From Rubrivivax sp. A210 (GTDB lineage: Bacteria > Pseudomonadota > Gammaproteobacteria > Burkholderiales > Burkholderiaceae_C), in NCBI RefSeq assembly GCF_904426505.1, contig NZ_CAJGBN010000056.1:124001-188000 (forward strand): a stretch of 64,000 nucleotides of DNA, given 5' to 3'. The notes below the pieces were generated by a model that ran no database searches, was not told the origin of the DNA, and saw only the letters and a program-made list of their open reading frames with translations. Position 1 is the first letter of the stretch, and each line of letters begins with the position of its first letter. Both the position numbers and the translations under genes were made by a program. Positions 55,747 to 64,000 of the stretch are shown here, in pieces.

Positions 55747-58554
55747 ATGAGACAGCCCCGACAGCACTCGCCATCAGCGCCGCGTGCGCCGCGCCTGCAA
55801 CTCGCCGCAGCCGCCGCGCTGCTGTGCCTGCTCACCGCCTGCTCACGGCCCGATCCGGCGGCCCTGGCCCAGTCTGCGGCGCAACGGCTGGAACGCGACG
55901 ACCTTGCAGGCGCCGTGCTCGACGCCCGGGCGGCCCTGCAGGCCCGCTCCGACAGCGCTGGCGCCCGCCTCACCCTGGCCAAGGCCTTGCTGGCCTCGGG
56001 CCAGCTCGAGGAAGCCGCCACCGAGTTGCGCCGGGCGCGTGAAGGCGGCTCGCCGCTGCGCGAGACGACGCTGGCCCAGGCCGCGCTGCTGCTGCGCCAG
56101 GGCGATGCGCGGGCGGTGATCGCGCTCGGCGCCACGGCCCGGCTCGAAACGCCGGCGGCGCGCGCCGACCTGCTGGTGCTGGTGGCGCGAGCCCATGCCA
56201 TGCAGCAACGCGACGACGCGATGGCGGCGGCCCTGGCCGAAGCCCTGCGCCTGGCACCCGAGCACACCGGGGCACGCCTGCAGCTGGCCCGCCTGGCTGG
56301 CGCCAAGGGCCAGTGGGCCAAGGCCGAAGGCCAGGTCGATGCGGTGCTGGCGCGCGACGCAAAGCAGGCCGAGGCCTGGCTGCTGAAGGGTGAGATCGCG
56401 CTGCAGCGCAAATCCGACGACAAGGCCGCCGAAGCCCTGCTGCGCAAGGCCATCGAGTTGCGGCCCGGCCTGCAGGCGGCCCACGCCCGCCTGATCCTGC
56501 TGCAACTGGCGCGCAAGGACCTGGCCGCGGCCACCACCCAGGCCCAGGCCATGGCCCGCGCGGTACACGGCGATCCGCGCACCGACCACATGCAGGCCCT
56601 GGTGGCCCTGGCCACCGGCCACCTGGAGCGCGCACGCGGCATGGCGCAACGCGCCACGCGGGCTGGCGACAGCTTTCCGCCGGCGCTCTACCTGGCCGGC
56701 ATCATCGAACAGCGCGCCGGCGCCACGGCCCATGCCGAGAAGCTGCTGGCCCATGCGATGAAGCTGATGCCTGCCGCGCCCGAGCCGCGGCGCGAGCTGG
56801 CCGCCCTGTACGCCAGCCAGGGCCAGGGCGCGCAGGCGCTGGACATCCTCACGCCCCTGCTCAAGCCGCAGTCCACGGATGTCGCGACCTGGCGCGCGGC
56901 CGGCCAGATCCACACCGTGCTGGGCGATTTCCGTCGCGCCGATGCCGCCTTCGCACGCGCCACCCGCCTCGACCCGCGCGACGCCGCCACCCGGTTGCAG
57001 AACGCGCAGTCGCTGCTGGCGCGCGGGTCGGTGGACCTGGGCATCGCGCAGATGCAATCGGCGGCGCGCCTGGGCGGCGACCACGGCGCCGACATGGCCC
57101 TGGTGGCGGCGCAGATGAGCCGCGGACGGCACGACGCGGCGCTCGAGGCCCTCGATGCGCTGGACCGCAAGCAGCCGCCCGGCGCGCTGAGCCAGCATGT
57201 GCGCGGCCAGATCCTGGCCGCCACCGGCAAGACCGAGGCGGCGCGCAAGGCCTTCGAGGCCGCGCTGGCCAAGGACGCCACCTACCTGCCGGCCGTACAC
57301 GGCCTGGCGGCCCTGGATGCCCGCGCCGACAACCTGGCCGCAGCGCGGGCACGCTACGAGGCCGTGGTGCAGCGCGATCCGCGCGCTGCCCCCGCTCTGC
57401 TGGCCCTGGCCAACATCACGCGCATGGCGGGCGGCAGCCGATCCGAGGCCGCGGGCTTTCTGGACAAGGCGGTGCGCATCGACCCGGGTGCCGTGAATGT
57501 CTGGCGCCAGGCCCTGGACCACCACCGCCGCGCCGGCGACACCGAAGGCCTGGTGGCGCGCGCCCGCGACGCCGTGGCCGCCGTGCCCGAAGACGCCGAC
57601 CTGCTGCTGGAGCTGGGCAGCGCGCTGACCTCGTCGCGCGATCCGCAACAGGCGTTGACGGTGCTGGAAAAGGCCGTGCGCGTGGCGCCGGGCTCGGCGG
57701 CGGCCCGGCTGCGTCTGGCCCAGGCCCTGATCGACGCACGCCGCCCGGAGAAGGCCGCGCCCCAGATCGGCAAGGCGCTGGCACTGGCGCCCGACTGGGC
57801 TCCGGCCCTGCGCAGCAACCTCGCCCTGCTGGCGCAGGATGCCAAGCCCGAGAAGGCGCTGGCCTTTGCCCGCCGCACCCAGGCCCGCCTGCCCAAGAGC
57901 GCCATCGGCTGGCAGCTCGAGGCCGAACTGGCGCAGCAGCGCCAGGATTCGAAATCCGCCATCGCGGCCCTGCGCACCGCGGTGGCCAAGGCAGACGGCA
58001 ACGAATCGGCCCTGCACCTGCACCGCGCGCTGATGGGCGCCGGCCAAGCCGCAGAGGCCGACCGCTTCGCCCAGGCCTGGCTCAAGGCCCATGCCGGCGA
58101 CGAGGCCATGAACACCGAACTGGGCCATCTGTCGCTGCGGCGTGCCGACTGGGCTCTCGCCGAAACCCACTACCGCGCCGCCCTCGGCAGCCATCCCGGT
58201 TCGCCGCTGCTGCTGAACAACCTGGCCTATGTGCTGTTGCAGCGCAAGGACTCGGGCGCGCTGGCCATGGCCCAGCGCGCCGTGCGCGGCGCACCCGACC
58301 TCGCGCCGGCGGTGGACACCCTGGCCCTGGCCTATGCGGCCAACGCCCACCTCGACAAGGCCATCGAATGGCAGAAGCGGGCGGTGGCGCTGGCGCCCAA
58401 GACAGGCCTGTTCAGGTTGCAGCTGGCCCGGTTCCACCTGCGGGCCGGCGAAAAGGACAAGGCCCGCGAACAGTTGATGCGCCTGCAGGATCAGGGCTCG
58501 GACTTCCCGGCCCAGGACGAGGTCCGTCGCCTGCTGGGGCGGATCGAGGCCTGA
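55747..58554 (+). CDS. prsT: PEP-CTERM system TPR-repeat lipoprotein PrsT
   Basis: 935-residue protein built almost entirely of tetratricopeptide repeats (phrases such as AEAWLLKGEIALQRKSDDKA, AATRLQNAQSLLARGSVDLG and LLNNLAYVLLQRKDSGALAM recur every 34 residues, more than twenty times). The leader LQLAAAAALLCLLTACSRPD contains a lipobox (LTAC), so it is a lipoprotein, probably in the outer membrane. Size, lipobox and repeat arrangement match PrsT, a marker of exosortase/PEP-CTERM systems and linked to exopolysaccharide loci, where it is thought to help export or sort PEP-CTERM proteins. It is co-transcribed with the first PEP-CTERM gene. No exosortase or polysaccharide gene is in the window. 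Confidence 0.9.
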   Translation: MRQPRQHSPSAPRAPRLQLAAAAALLCLLTACSRPDPAALAQSAAQRLERDDLAGAVLDARAALQARSDSAGARLTLAKALLASGQLEEAATELRRAREGGSPLRETTLAQAALLLRQGDARAVIALGATARLETPAARADLLVLVARAHAMQQRDDAMAAALAEALRLAPEHTGARLQLARLAGAKGQWAKAEGQVDAVLARDAKQAEAWLLKGEIALQRKSDDKAAEALLRKAIELRPGLQAAHARLILLQLARKDLAAATTQAQAMARAVHGDPRTDHMQALVALATGHLERARGMAQRATRAGDSFPPALYLAGIIEQRAGATAHAEKLLAHAMKLMPAAPEPRRELAALYASQGQGAQALDILTPLLKPQSTDVATWRAAGQIHTVLGDFRRADAAFARATRLDPRDAATRLQNAQSLLARGSVDLGIAQMQSAARLGGDHGADMALVAAQMSRGRHDAALEALDALDRKQPPGALSQHVRGQILAATGKTEAARKAFEAALAKDATYLPAVHGLAALDARADNLAAARARYEAVVQRDPRAAPALLALANITRMAGGSRSEAAGFLDKAVRIDPGAVNVWRQALDHHRRAGDTEGLVARARDAVAAVPEDADLLLELGSALTSSRDPQQALTVLEKAVRVAPGSAAARLRLAQALIDARRPEKAAPQIGKALALAPDWAPALRSNLALLAQDAKPEKALAFARRTQARLPKSAIGWQLEAELAQQRQDSKSAIAALRTAVAKADGNESALHLHRALMGAGQAAEADRFAQAWLKAHAGDEAMNTELGHLSLRRADWALAETHYRAALGSHPGSPLLLNNLAYVLLQRKDSGALAMAQRAVRGAPDLAPAVDTLALAYAANAHLDKAIEWQKRAVALAPKTGLFRLQLARFHLRAGEKDKAREQLMRLQDQGSDFPAQDEVRRLLGRIEA

Positions 58555-58961
58555 CGGCGGAGACACCCGCCGAAGAAAGGCTCGCAAACCTTCAGCGGCC
58601 TTTCGGCCCCCCCCCGACCGGCGCCCCTTGGGCGCCGGTTGTCCTTGGGCGCGACCTTCGCTCCTGCACCAGCACGCGGCCGCCCTCGCCTGGCGCGACG
58701 GAACCTCGCCCCTGTCGGGCAGGCCCATGGCCGGCCCGCGCGTGCCGTGCGCCCCGGGCCGCGGATGAAGCCGTGCAGGAACGGGCACAAATGCGCAGCA
58801 GCCCTGGTCTGGTTGGCCGCTCTTAAGGCGCTCCAATCTTAAAAATTTGATACTTAGTGTCACTAAACGTCATCAGGTGTCAAACATTGAAGATTCTTCG
58901 AAATGCAGCTGGCACCGGAGGCGGTTTCCCAACCCTGCCCTCACGGGCGCAAGGAGTACGC
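58555..58961. other. 407-base gap: hairpins after prsT, then an A/T-rich leader
   Basis: No gene is supported here. ACCGGCGCCC (58617-58626) and GGGCGCCGGT (58630-58639) form a 10-bp hairpin about 60 bases after the prsT stop, preceded by a smaller GGCC-TTTC-GGCC stem; either might end the prsT transcript, though no T-run follows. From about 58820 the sequence turns A/T-rich (CTTAAAAATTTGATACTTAG), the likely promoter zone of the second PEP-CTERM gene. TTGATA at 58847-58852 could be a -35 element, but no matching -10 is seen. Confidence 0.5.
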
Positions 58962-59678
58962 ATGTCCAGCAAGTTGAAAACGGCCCTGGCTGGGGCGATC
59001 GGCATGATCTGCACGGGTGTTGCAGTGGCAGCGCCAGTGACTTTCGACGCGGTGGGCGACACCGCCAAGGCGCAGTTCAGCCAGAGCGGATCGACGTCGA
59101 TGGCAGCGAGCATGGTGTGGACGCTGACCAGCGCGGCCGGGCGCGACCTGAGCTTCCATGTGGTGCTCGACAACCTCTCGGCTTCCGGCTCGACGCCCAA
59201 GCTGGCCGGGTTCGGCCTCACCAATCTCACGCCCAACCCCAGTTCGGTGGGCGACGACAGCACGCTGTGGGACACCTACGCCACCGAGAAAGTGTCGCTG
59301 GGGGGCCAGGAGGTCGAGTTTTGCAGCCGTTTCGATGGCGCCTCCAGCAACTCGACCCAGGTCAAGTGCGACAGCAGCAGCACGCTGGGCCTCGCCGCGG
59401 GCGGGCATAGCGAGTTCAACCTGACGCTGCGCTTCGGCCCGAACTACAGCTTCCAGCGCGACCACGTCCGGTTCGACAGCTTCCTCGTTCGCTTCACCCA
59501 GGCAGGCAGCGGCGAGAACTCGGGCCGGACGCTGAGCGGTGGCGGCACGCTCTTCACCCTGCCGGGCAGCGGCAGTCTGCTGCAGAGCGGACCGACTCAT
59601 GCCGTTCCCGAGCCGGCCACTTTCTGGCTCGCCGGGCTGGCCCTGCTGGCACTGCCGCTGCGCCGTCGCGCCGCCTGA
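58962..59678 (+). CDS. PEP-CTERM sorting domain protein (second copy)
   Basis: 238-residue exported protein. AAGGAG five bases before ATG 58962 decides the start. Signal peptide KLKTALAGAIGMICTGVAVA ends AAP. The mature start VTFDAVGDTAKAQFSQSGST mirrors the first copy (FDAVGD), as do LWDTYATEKVSLGGQEVEFC, STLGLAAGGHSEFNLTLRFG and RDHVRFDSFLVRFTQAGSGE. Two Cys occur at the same relative places (VEFCSRFD, QVKCDSS). The C-terminus AVPEPATFWLAGLALLALPL plus RRRAA is the PEP-CTERM signal. Likely a paralogue from local duplication, with prsT between the copies; its own leader suggests separate transcription. Confidence 0.92.
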   Translation: MSSKLKTALAGAIGMICTGVAVAAPVTFDAVGDTAKAQFSQSGSTSMAASMVWTLTSAAGRDLSFHVVLDNLSASGSTPKLAGFGLTNLTPNPSSVGDDSTLWDTYATEKVSLGGQEVEFCSRFDGASSNSTQVKCDSSSTLGLAAGGHSEFNLTLRFGPNYSFQRDHVRFDSFLVRFTQAGSGENSGRTLSGGGTLFTLPGSGSLLQSGPTHAVPEPATFWLAGLALLALPLRRRAA

Positions 59679-59729: not shown

Positions 59730-61739
59730 ATGGCCCCCCCTATGCCCAGCACCAAGAACGGCCCCATCTACGCCGAAGCCTCGATCCGCGTGCTCAAGGG
59801 CCTCGAGCCCGTCAAGCAGCGGCCGGGCATGTACACGCGCACCGACAACCCCCTGCACATCGTGCAGGAGGCCATCGACAACGCAGCCGACGAGGCCCTG
59901 GCCGGCGTGTGCAAGCGCATTGCCGTCACGTTGCACGCCGACGGCTCGGTCAGCGTCGACGACGACGGCCGCGGCATCCCTTTCGGCCTGCACCCGCAGG
60001 AACAGGTGCCGGTGCTGGAGATCGTCTTCACGCGGCTGCACGCCGGCGGCAAGTTCGACAAGGGCGCCGGCGGCGCCTACAGCTTCAGCGGCGGCCTGCA
60101 CGGCGTGGGCGTGAGCGTCACCAATGCGCTGGCGACCCGGCTGGCAGTGACGGTATGGCGCGAGGGCCAGGTGGCCACACTCGCCTTCGGCGGCGGCGAT
60201 GTCGTCGAGCCGCTGGTGCTGCGCAAGGCCACGGGCAGCGAGCGCCGCCACGGCACCTGCGTGCGCGTCTGGCCCGACCCGAAGTACTTCGAGAGCCCCG
60301 AGCTGCCGCGCGCCGACCTCATACACCTGCTGCGCAGCAAGGCGGTGCTGATGCCGGGCGTGACGGTGTCGCTGACGGTCGAGAAGCCGGGCCAGAAAGA
60401 CCCCGAGACGCAGAACTGGAAGTTCGAGGCCGGCCTGCGCGACTACCTGCTGCAGAGCCTGGCGGCCGAGCCGCTGATCCCGCTCTTCGAGGGCGCGCAG
60501 TACGCCGAGGCCAACGAGACCGAGAACTTCGCCGAGGGCGAGGGCGCGGCCTGGTGCGTGGCCTTCACCGACGAGGGCGGCCTGCTGCGCGAGAGCTACG
60601 TCAACCTGATCCCCACGGTGGCCGGCGGCACCCATGAGTCGGGGCTCAAGGACGGCCTCTTCGGCGCCATCAAGGGCTTCATCGAACTGCACGCCCTGCT
60701 GCCCAAGGGCGTGAAGCTGATGCCCGAGGACGTGTTCTCGCGCGCCAGCTTTGTCCTCTCAGCCAAGGTGCTGGACCCGCAATTCCAGGGCCAGATCAAG
60801 GAAAGGCTGAACAGCCGCGACGCGCTGCGCCTGGTCAGCAGCTTCGTCAAGCCGGCGCTCGAACTCTGGCTCAACCAGCACGTCGAGCAGGGCCGCAAGC
60901 TGGCCGAACTGGTGATCCGCCAGGCGCAGACGCGCCAGCGTGCGAGCCAGAAGGTCGAAAAGCGCAAGGGCAGCGGCGTGGCCGTGCTGCCGGGCAAGCT
61001 GACCGACTGCGAAAGCCGCGATCTCCTGCACAACGAGGTCTTCCTGGTCGAGGGCGACAGCGCCGGCGGCAGCGCCAAGATGGGCCGCAACAAGGAGACG
61101 CAGGCGGTGCTGCCGCTGCGCGGCAAGGTGCTCAACACCTGGGAGGTCGAGCGCGACCGGCTGTTTGCCAACAACGAGATCCACGACATCGCGGTGGCCA
61201 TCGGCGTCGACCCGCATGGCCCCGCCGATGCGGCCGATCTGTCCGGCCTGCGTTACGGCAAGGTCTGCATCCTCAGCGACGCCGACGTCGACGGCTCGCA
61301 CATCCAGGTGCTGCTGCTGACGCTCTTCTTCCGCCACTTTCCGCGCCTGGTCGAGGCCGGCCATGTCTACATCGCCAAGCCGCCGCTGTACCGCATCGAC
61401 GCGCCGGCGCGCGGCAAGCGGCCGGCGGCCAAGCTCTATGCGCTGGACGACGGCGAGCTCGAGGCGGCGCTGGACAAGCTGCGCAAGGAGGGCGCCAAGG
61501 AAGGCAGCTGGACCATCAGCCGCTTCAAGGGCCTGGGCGAGATGAACGCCGAGCAACTGTGGGAGACCACGCTCAACCCCGAGACGCGGCGCCTGTTGCC
61601 GGTGGGCTGGCTCGTGAACGGAGCCCAGGACTTCGAAGCCACCGTGGGCATGCTGACCAAGCTGATGGGCAAGGGCGAGGCGGCGGCCCGGCGCGAGCTG
61701 ATGGAGCTGCACGGCGACGCCGTGGAAGTCGATGTCTGA
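59730..61739 (+). CDS. parE: DNA topoisomerase IV subunit B (ParE)
   Basis: 669-residue ATPase subunit of topoisomerase IV, which unlinks daughter chromosomes with ParC. GHKL ATPase: LHIVQEAIDNAADEALAGVC, VDDDGRGIPFGLHPQEQVPV and YSFSGGLHGVGVSVTNALAT. Transducer: NLIPTVAGGTHESGLKDGLF. Toprim: NEVFLVEGDSAGGSAKMGRN and ILSDADVDGSHIQVLLLTLF. C-terminal: SRFKGLGEMNAEQLWETTLN. The length and the absence of the gyrase insertion (about 800 residues in GyrB) identify it as ParE. ATG 59742 is an alternative start. The stop overlaps the next gene by 8 bases. Confidence 0.96.
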   Translation: MAPPMPSTKNGPIYAEASIRVLKGLEPVKQRPGMYTRTDNPLHIVQEAIDNAADEALAGVCKRIAVTLHADGSVSVDDDGRGIPFGLHPQEQVPVLEIVFTRLHAGGKFDKGAGGAYSFSGGLHGVGVSVTNALATRLAVTVWREGQVATLAFGGGDVVEPLVLRKATGSERRHGTCVRVWPDPKYFESPELPRADLIHLLRSKAVLMPGVTVSLTVEKPGQKDPETQNWKFEAGLRDYLLQSLAAEPLIPLFEGAQYAEANETENFAEGEGAAWCVAFTDEGGLLRESYVNLIPTVAGGTHESGLKDGLFGAIKGFIELHALLPKGVKLMPEDVFSRASFVLSAKVLDPQFQGQIKERLNSRDALRLVSSFVKPALELWLNQHVEQGRKLAELVIRQAQTRQRASQKVEKRKGSGVAVLPGKLTDCESRDLLHNEVFLVEGDSAGGSAKMGRNKETQAVLPLRGKVLNTWEVERDRLFANNEIHDIAVAIGVDPHGPADAADLSGLRYGKVCILSDADVDGSHIQVLLLTLFFRHFPRLVEAGHVYIAKPPLYRIDAPARGKRPAAKLYALDDGELEAALDKLRKEGAKEGSWTISRFKGLGEMNAEQLWETTLNPETRRLLPVGWLVNGAQDFEATVGMLTKLMGKGEAAARRELMELHGDAVEVDV

Positions 61740-62289
61740 CGAGGCCGCCACGCCGGCGGGGCCACCGCTGCGCCTGCGCCCGACCATGCTGTCGGACCTG
61801 GACTTCGTGATCTCGGTCGAGAACGACCAGCGCAACCTGCCCTTCATCACCCCCTGGGACCGCACCCAGCATGAGGGCGCGGTGCGCATCCCCGATTTCC
61901 GCCACTTCATCGTCGAGGCCGGCGTCGATGGCTCGCGCGACGGCTTCGTCATCCTGCAGGGCTGCCGCAACCCGCACAGAAGCGTCGAGTTGAAGCGTGT
62001 GGTGCTGCAGAGCAAGGGCCGCGGCCTGGGCCGGCAATGCGTGCGCATGCTCAAGCGCATGGCCTTTCGCGACCTGCGCGCGCACCGCTTCTGGCTCGAC
62101 GTGAAATCGCTCAACACGCGGGCGCTGGCCCTTTACGCCAGCGAGGGCTTCGTCGAGGAAGGCCGATTGCGCGAGAGCGTTCGCATCAGCACCGATCTGG
62201 CCGAGGGCTACGACAGCCTGGTGGTGATGAGCCTGCTCGACCGCGAATTCCAGGCGCGGCAAGCGCTGGGGCTGGAACTCGATCCCTGA
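61732..62289 (+). CDS. GNAT-family N-acetyltransferase
   Basis: 185-residue acetyltransferase. The acetyl-CoA loop is KGRGLGRQCVRMLKRMAFRD, following beta strand ELKRVVLQS. The later parts are RFWLDVKSLNTRALALYASE and GFVEEGRLRESVRISTDLAE, typical of RimJ/RimL-like GNATs that acetylate N-termini or small amines. It overlaps parE by 8 bases and is probably co-translated. The target is unknown. Confidence 0.88.
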   Translation: MSDEAATPAGPPLRLRPTMLSDLDFVISVENDQRNLPFITPWDRTQHEGAVRIPDFRHFIVEAGVDGSRDGFVILQGCRNPHRSVELKRVVLQSKGRGLGRQCVRMLKRMAFRDLRAHRFWLDVKSLNTRALALYASEGFVEEGRLRESVRISTDLAEGYDSLVVMSLLDREFQARQALGLELDP

Positions 62290-62322: not shown

Positions 62323-64000
62323 TCAGGGCTTGAACTCGTCGGTGGGAAGCGTGAGCACGAAGACACGTCCGCGCTCGCTGCCGGCACGGGCCGCAAGGCT
62401 GCCACCCATCTTCTGCGCCAGCTTCTGCGACAGCATCAGGCCCACGCTCAGGCCTGGCCCCGGTGCCGTGCCTGACGGGCCGGCAGCATGGTCCGGGGCC
62501 GGCAGCAGCGGCGCGAACAAGGCTGCCGGGTCATCCGTCGCCTCGGCCTCGTCGTGTACCTCGATCAGGATGTTGCCCTCGCGCACCTGCTTCTTGGCGT
62601 GCAGCGCCACCGTGCCATGCGCGGTGGCGGCGATGGCCTCGTGCAGCAGCTTGCGCAGCAGGCGCTCGACGCGCCGGGTGTCGCCGCGCGCATAGCCCAG
62701 GTCGTCGGCCAGCTGCAGGGCCAGGCCCAGGCCCTTGCGCTCGGCCTCGGGGCGCAGGCGGGTCGCGGTCTCGTTGAGAACCTCCCAGACGTCGAAGGCC
62801 TCGTGTACCAGCGCCACCCGGTCGGCCTCGAGCGCACCGTACTCCAGCACGTCCAGCACCGCCTCGTTGAGGCGCTCGGCCTGCGCCTGCAGCGCCGCCA
62901 GCGGCACACGCTGGCGTGGCGGCGTGGCGCCGTCGTCGTGCAGCAGCACGCCGGCGCGCGCCAGCAGCGTGGCCGCGGGCAGGCGTAACGCAAGCTCGAC
63001 GGCAGCCACGAAGGCGGCCTGCAGGCGCTCGGCCGCGTCGGCGCGCTCGACCGCCTGTTCCAGCTCGGCGCGGCCCGACTTGAGCGCCTCGACCTGGCGG
63101 GATACCGCGGTGCGCAGGCGCTCGGAATCGCTGATGTCGCGCACGACGCAGACCATGCTGCGGTCCTGCGGCGACCACTGCGCTGCCCACTGCAGATGGA
63201 CAACGCTGCCGTCCTTGCGACGCCAGCGGTTGCGCAGCACCTGGGCCGCCGTGCCGCGCGTGATGGCAGCCAGCTGGGCCTCGGTGCGGCGCTGGTCTTC
63301 GGGCAGGGCGTGCTCGATGGCCGGACGGCCGGTCAGCTCCTGCGCGCTCCAGCCCCACAGGCGCTCGCCGCCGGCGCTGATGCGCGTGATGCGGCCCTCG
63401 TCGTCGAGCAGGCAGGCGGCGTCCAGCGCCAGCTCGAACAGACGCTGCCACTCGCTATCGGCACGGCGCTCGCCCATGGTCGAGTCGACGGTTTCATTGC
63501 GGGCGCGGCGCAATGCCGCGCTCACCGTCTGCAGCCGCCACAGCGCAAAGCCGGCGATGCCCATTGCGGCCAGGCTGCAGGCCAGGGCCGCCCCCTGGGC
63601 CTGGTTGACACTGTTGGTGATGCGCGTCTGGCTGGCCTGGCGCTCGCCCTCGGCGTGCAGTTGCAACTCGGTCAGCGCGGCACGCACGCGCTCGTCCAGG
63701 CGCCGACCTTCGCCCGTGGCCTCCCAGGCTGCCACCGCCGCAAGGCCGCCGCGTCCGCCGCGCAGCGCGATCGCCTCGGCCATGCCCTCGAAGCGGCGCC
63801 CCAGCAGCGCGCCCAGCGCGATCAGGCGCTCGTAGCGTTCGACGCTGGGCGCATCGGTGCTGCGCAGCTCGGCCAGGCGGGCGTCGACGCCGTCCTTGGC
63901 ACGCCTGTAGCTGTCCAGCAGCGCCGGGTCGCCGGTGAGCACATGGCCGCGCATGTGGGACTCGGCCTCGTAGGTGCTGGCCTGCAGCGTGGCCAGCAGG
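62323..64000 (-). CDS. CHASE3-PAS membrane sensor with degenerate histidine-kinase core; N-terminus beyond window
   Basis: At least 559 residues; the frame continues past the right edge, so the first membrane helix is missing. Visible order: a helical CHASE3-type sensor (MRGHVLTGDPALLDSYRRAK), a membrane helix (ALACSLAAMGIAGFALWRL), a PAS domain (LDAACLLDDEGRITRISAGG to MVCVVRDISDSERLR), a coiled linker, then a HisKA/HATPase-like region. In the dimerisation helix, where kinases have F-x-x-x-x-S-H-E-x-R-T-P-L, this protein has FVAAVELALRLPAA, with Leu in place of the phospho-accepting His. The N-box reads KLLHEAIAATA (Glu instead of Asn), the G1 box DEAEATDD instead of D-x-G-x-G, and G2 is GLSVGLML. 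The C-terminus KMGGSLAARAGSERGRVFVL still matches the fold. It probably cannot autophosphorylate and may act as a pseudokinase. Confidence 0.8.
   Translation of the reverse strand, partial: LLATLQASTYEAESHMRGHVLTGDPALLDSYRRAKDGVDARLAELRSTDAPSVERYERLIALGALLGRRFEGMAEAIALRGGRGGLAAVAAWEATGEGRRLDERVRAALTELQLHAEGERQASQTRITNSVNQAQGAALACSLAAMGIAGFALWRLQTVSAALRRARNETVDSTMGERRADSEWQRLFELALDAACLLDDEGRITRISAGGERLWGWSAQELTGRPAIEHALPEDQRRTEAQLAAITRGTAAQVLRNRWRRKDGSVVHLQWAAQWSPQDRSMVCVVRDISDSERLRTAVSRQVEALKSGRAELEQAVERADAAERLQAAFVAAVELALRLPAATLLARAGVLLHDDGATPPRQRVPLAALQAQAERLNEAVLDVLEYGALEADRVALVHEAFDVWEVLNETATRLRPEAERKGLGLALQLADDLGYARGDTRRVERLLRKLLHEAIAATAHGTVALHAKKQVREGNILIEVHDEAEATDDPAALFAPLLPAPDHAAGPSGTAPGPGLSVGLMLSQKLAQKMGGSLAARAGSERGRVFVLTLPTDEFKP

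Follow-up and report, generated by a model that had tools for sequence, protein, structure and literature searches.

The right end of the window (the 64,000-nucleotide stretch of Rubrivivax sp. A210 DNA analysed here) carries a gene for a membrane sensor with a histidine-kinase fold, and the question is whether the encoded protein can still act as a kinase and, if it cannot, what it does. Its status as a pseudokinase is well supported by sequence, as losses at the catalytic sites are common to all five genomes that carry the gene (the carriers). From what is established for the family, a protein lacking these residues is very unlikely to autophosphorylate, to carry out phosphotransfer or to bind ATP in the ordinary way. 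We think it rather likely that this is a pseudo-histidine kinase relaying a CHASE3/PAS signal by protein contact. The features under discussion are:

62323..64000, (-) strand: last 558 of the 607 codons of the pseudo-histidine-kinase gene, from the stop codon (62323-62325) to the right edge of the window
63634..63996, (-) strand: CHASE3 sensor domain, in-window part (PF05227, 58.9 bits on the window part)
63535..63597, (-) strand: second membrane helix, approximate, a hydrophobic stretch placed by eye; the first helix lies beyond the window edge
63133..63453, (-) strand: PAS domain (PF00989)
62827..63030, (-) strand: DHp-like helices, limits by eye (sub-cut-off HisKA match; phmmer to GacS, DivL and RetS; alignment)
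62338..62685, (-) strand: HATPase_c (CA) fold (PF02518, 34.3 bits)
61732..62289, (+) strand: GNAT acetyltransferase, convergent neighbour (PF13302/PF00583), which also adjoins the gene in two other carriers (G475 and G023)
59730..61739, (+) strand: ParE, topoisomerase IV subunit B, neighbour (HATPase_c match there; genus search)

Gene and domain architecture

The full gene, which an earlier sequence-only reading of the window had proposed to obtain, was recovered from the adjoining stretch of the same contig (L009:324-2147, minus strand; 607 codons and amino acids). It starts with an ATG 146 bases past the right window edge (L009:2147). The frame is open up to that edge without interruption, and an orthologue in a Rubrivivax MAG (L048; 74% identical) matches residues 1-606. 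A frameshift or read error is thus rejected, in agreement with the earlier statement that the frame is fully open and free of frameshift decay. The gene faces parE and the GNAT gene on the left, and diverges from a chemoreceptor gene and parC (L009:4444-6810, beyond the window edge) on the right. The names parE and parC are our assignment from the sequences.

Searches of the full protein with Pfam place CHASE3 (64.5 bits, cut-off 28), PAS (35.8 bits, cut-off 22.6) and HATPase_c (cut-off 26.4) above their thresholds. HisKA reaches just 12.7 bits (cut-off 26.9), with a match that begins at residue 392, past the H-box. The same holds across the carriers: HATPase_c is over the Pfam cut-off in all five proteins, which places them in the GHKL/HATPase_c fold, and HisKA is below its cut-off or unlisted in all five. 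PF05227 passes its cut-off in P0013, P0014 and P0019, which we assign to the CHASE3 sensors, the domain lying between two membrane helices recognised by eye; CHASE3 is unlisted for P0021, and P0020 ends at a contig end. The CHASE3-like sensor, membrane helix and PAS domain had been described as well preserved, and this stands for CHASE3 and PAS by profile and for the helix by eye. In the protein of carrier G489 (L054, P0021) there is a Pro/Arg/Thr-rich low-complexity stretch ahead of the first membrane helix, and its start codon is unsure.

A predicted model of the protein is of low confidence overall (mean pLDDT 53.7, 4 rows), and most of the DHp part stays below 60. Values of 80-89 are reached at model residues 401-480, and values below 50 occur at 497-517 and in the lid region.

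Loss of catalytic residues

The H-box stretch FVAAVELALRLP occupies 62977-63012 (previously given as 62975-63012), and its phospho-accepting His is Leu385 (codon 62992-62994). The other boxes were read from a MAFFT alignment with 40 intact relatives, kinases picked by hand mostly on profile score, with the motif not used. The N-box Asn is Glu503 (codon 62638-62640) and the other N-box Asn is Lys499. The first G1 Gly is A534; the second falls in a gap column, and by eye is A536. In G2, GTGLG has become GLSVG. Comparison with solved structures using phmmer gave GacS (7z8n, E 2.6e-18), DivL (4q20, 3e-15) and RetS (6dk8, 1.3e-8) as top matches. In all three alignments the Leu lies at the phospho-acceptor site (His, Tyr and His, respectively) and the Glu lies at the N-box Asn. 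The sequence-only reading had named a different register, with His, Asn and Gly at the catalytic positions, as what would overturn it; neither phmmer nor MAFFT found one. Its substitutions of Leu for His and Glu for Asn and its altered G2 are therefore upheld. Its loss of both G1 glycines is upheld too, the first being Ala and the second an alignment gap (by eye Ala).

These losses extend to the other carriers. The phospho-accepting His, the Glu that follows it and the first G1 Gly are each present in 40/40 intact kinases and 0/5 carriers. The two N-box Asn are kept in 39/40 and 40/40 intact kinases and again in none of the five. Partial retention is seen at the second G1 Gly (40/40 intact, 1/5 carriers), the G1 Asp (Asp532; 40/40 and 3/5) and the middle Gly of G2 (40/40 and 2/5). 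The fold residues D489, R492, G511, MGG580-582 and G593 are retained in all five carriers. Losses thus hit catalytic sites more than the fold. With neither the H-box His nor the N-box Asn, and with the first G1 Gly also missing, these proteins fall outside the HisKA-type sensor histidine kinases. It had been asked whether the substitutions are conserved among orthologues. Loss of the His and N-box Asn is, and the replacement of the His is not, as the carriers read L, L, R, A, A at that site.

As a control we considered the other kinases of the genome. PF02518 finds 78 stretches, and 77 HATPase_c stretches were examined with parE omitted (the pseudokinase and 76 others). A pattern search recognised the N-box Asn in 75 of these 76 and flagged L184, where TNIS can be read by eye. 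The pseudokinase is thus the sole stretch of the 77 without it, and a general laxity of kinases in this genome is rejected. The D.G.G pattern is missing in the pseudokinase, L152 and L169, of which the latter two retain H and N. Of the 76 others, 55 show a canonical H-box by pattern, and L163 has one when read by eye; among the other 20 are what we take to be CheA-, MutL-, GyrB- and HtpG-like sequences.

Distribution and origin

A profile built from all five carriers identifies the gene in 5 of 81 genomes of the genus, with E values from 4e-295 to 3.5e-175. Next comes G467 (1.4e-110), an intact kinase with HELRTP followed by an apparent receiver gene; all other matches are at 2.6e-61 or weaker. 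A profile of four carriers had already recovered the fifth, G489 (E 5e-128). Identity to the window protein is about 75% for one carrier and 35-36% for three. Matches in G493 resembled further members, and were rejected as intact kinases. Single-protein and profile searches of samples of 399 genomes from the family and 399 from the order (G000, the genome of the window, included in each) yielded no further carrier; because three candidates per genome were scored, distant carriers could escape. Among the 23 other matches listed for the order, all 11 that were read have an intact H-box.

Midpoint-rooted trees of the DHp-CA region group the five carriers in one clade, with support of 99/98 (45 rows) and 100/99 (56 rows); G023 forms a long branch. 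The common loss of catalytic residues may strengthen this grouping, and the single interval in which the gene is located is independent support for it. The clade joins, with modest support, near PAS histidine kinases of the HELRTPLNSIIG type from the order, L100 among them, which have the highest profile scores outside it. Unlike the clade, these kinases have an intact H-box; in L100 the N, G1 and G2 boxes are present too, and an apparent receiver gene (by eye) follows. A parE tree (23 rows) does not group the carriers as one species clade; this tree is mostly unresolved and so does not separate descent with losses from transfer. With its apparent single origin and its intact relatives in the order, the clade makes it possible to ask how the loss of the boxes was sequenced and where selection continued to act once they were gone.

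Genomic context

In all five carriers the gene lies in the parE-parC interval, with both flanks seen in three (G000, G475 and G023). In G025 it follows parE after a further 5 kb, at a contig end, and in G489 it is beside parC on a short contig. For a survey of the interval, 36 of 40 fetched stretches adjoin parE, giving 37 with L009. Also visible is parC in 23 of these: three carriers with the gene between, and 20 non-carriers without a sensor match. The other 14 stop short of parC; they are G025 and 13 non-carriers, which are uninformative on the full interval.

The rest of the interval varies. In G000 a chemoreceptor gene (L009:2283-4364, plus strand; sCache_2, HAMP, MCPsignal and CZB) lies divergently between the pseudokinase gene and parC. 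At its place G475 has an OmpA-family gene, and parC follows directly in G023 and G489. Located 3' of the pseudokinase gene in G025 and G489 is an acyl-CoA-ligase-like gene, named by eye; these two genes (L098 and L054) are 86% identical over 250 residues, and the stretches fetched from the other three carriers show no counterpart.

A response-regulator gene near by is usual for HisKA kinases, and not required. The sequence-only reading had suggested looking for one, or for another kinase, past the right edge, where there is none within 14 kb. A scan of G000 covering 65 kb on the left and 14 kb on the right (C56:120.8k to 202.2k) identified no receiver domain, and no HATPase_c other than those of parE and the pseudokinase itself. 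The description of the gene as a conserved adaptor next to parE was right on position; its conservation is narrow (5 of 81 genomes), and the adaptor role was an interpretation, no partner gene lying near by.

Selection on the domains

Ratios were calculated by NG86 with a codon bootstrap for the single pair G000 and G475, and are a simple count. The PAS domain has an omega of 0.12 (0.05-0.24) and is 91% identical to that of the sister species. The linker is at 0.24 (up to 0.84; 30 codons), DHp at 0.40 (0.20-0.76) and the membrane and CHASE3 region at 0.51 (0.35-0.75), so CHASE3 is under looser constraint than DHp. The CA domain has the weakest constraint (0.67; 0.46-1.01). Alone it is not distinguishable from neutral and is near free drift, the strongest result against a role for it; because of this weak constraint, a part for CA in binding regulators is the least certain. 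Ratios for the neighbours in the same pair are about 0.15 (parE), 0.29 (parC) and 0.27 (GNAT gene). By identity, DHp is the lowest of the domains (60% between the sister species, and 44% over residues 401-425).

Core identity of the pseudokinase between these genomes is 0.643, versus 0.791 upstream. Nine other kinase pairs present in both (from the 30 of 83 G475 loci available) have enough sequence upstream for the comparison; in seven of them the core is the better conserved, and the other two show differences of 0.04 and 0.065. The usual order of conservation (core above upstream) is thus reversed in the pseudokinase. In a tenth pair (L149), with too little upstream sequence for the comparison, core identity is 0.636, so low core identity alone is not unique.

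One explanation, which we consider unlikely, is that the gene is in slow decay: having lost catalysis and with CA drifting, it would keep an open frame for the time being (or CHASE3 and PAS alone would still matter). The upper bound on the CA ratio, a core identity among the lowest of the kinase pairs compared and the patchy presence of the gene are as expected from this, whereas the matched frame contains no stop codons in any of the five carriers, despite the 35-36% identity of three. Also against decay are the PAS ratio, a DHp ratio with an upper bound of 0.76, the retention of fold residues in every carrier and a GC3 of 0.895, near that of parC (0.925). The fold kept, the catalytic residues lost and the gene under selection together characterise a pseudo-histidine kinase, with CA alone near neutral.

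Known pseudo-histidine kinases and probable function

To our knowledge, few pseudo-histidine kinases have been studied; Collins and Childers reportedly reviewed them in 2021. RetS is a hybrid protein carrying receiver domains, and differs in this from the pseudokinase, which has none. RetS and GacS (PDB 6dk7/6dk8, 7n0e, 7z8n) are among the nearest proteins by sequence and fold, and by its title entry 7n0e is a solved structure of their complex. A laboratory-evolved ChrS variant is reported as another pseudo-histidine kinase. RocA of Streptococcus, accessory to CovS, is alike in being a membrane sensor with a CA domain without catalytic residues that works via a partner kinase; it retains a candidate His246, which is dispensable (PMC7028121). 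Its sensor region differs, and its partner is known.

Pseudo-histidine kinases are thus already known (DivL, RocA), and the five-member clade is more fully degenerate, being distinguished by the joint loss of His, N-box and G1, by its sensor and by its fixed place. No paper on this gene was among the matches listed in open-licence PMC literature on pseudo-histidine kinases or Rubrivivax kinases. A 2025 paper gives loss of the His in 0.9% of HisKA domains (722/76,471), counted on recognised HisKA domains (PMC12632262). As the five proteins are below the cut-off or unlisted for HisKA, such a census probably omits them, and may therefore underestimate how many there are.

With sensing parts and kinase shape kept and the phosphorylation residues lost, the protein probably signals by touching other proteins. 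A CHASE3/PAS signal would shift the dimeric DHp helices, and the pseudokinase would then act on another protein. The most likely partner is a working histidine kinase, reached through a mixed dimer or cluster, for which RetS on GacS and RocA on CovS would be models. The CA domain would then be mainly a structural remnant. We favour contact with a partner kinase encoded elsewhere because phosphorylation is very unlikely, PAS is the best kept domain and near by there is no receiver gene and, parE apart, no other HATPase_c gene; the partner step is drawn by analogy with the RocA-CovS and RetS-GacS pairs. Against relay by contact are the low identity of DHp, the part expected to dock a partner, the looser constraint on CHASE3 than on DHp, the low confidence of the model and the few genomes with the gene.

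Less likely, the pseudokinase might hold a response regulator, as DivL does. We judge it quite improbable that a (phosphorylated) response regulator docks on DHp and has its state passed on in this way. DivL, the Caulobacter pseudo-histidine kinase (PDB 4q20), shares the PAS and DHp-CA fold and a replaced His, and is the best VIA-align match and second by sequence. The DivL core works without kinase or phosphatase activity in vitro, binds DivK~P and has a conserved receiver-docking surface (PMC4211667). DivL has Tyr for His and keeps its N, F, G1 and G2 boxes (PMC4211667), whereas the pseudokinase clade loses His, N-box Asn and G1. Its boxes lost and its DHp poorly conserved, the protein falls outside the DivL family; also unlike DivL, it has a CHASE3 sensor and occurs in a Rubrivivax-type genome, with no receiver domain within 14 kb.

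A speculative and highly improbable extension is that, in a single event, a histidine kinase became a conformational receptor working without phosphate, with PAS-linker-DHp as output and GHKL only as scaffold. Its fixed parE-parC place would then mean that it is co-regulated with topoisomerase IV or chromosome segregation, or acts on one of them. It is scarcely credible that the protein is still an enzyme, with another residue accepting phosphate or ATP bound in an unusual mode: the HATPase_c scores and the G1 Asp of three carriers speak for it, and against it are the absence of a common replacement for the His, the lack of both the N-box Asn and the first G1 Gly from every carrier, and the low-confidence lid of the model.

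Other genes in the window

A predicted secreted protein is encoded at 58857-59678 (plus strand). It ends with VPEPATFWLAGLALLALPLRRRAA, which by eye resembles what we take to be a PEP-CTERM sorting signal. Upstream of this gene, at 55747-58554 (plus strand), is a gene for a lipoprotein-like protein of 935 aa with repeats that look TPR-like by eye, which may be part of an exopolysaccharide/PEP-CTERM system.
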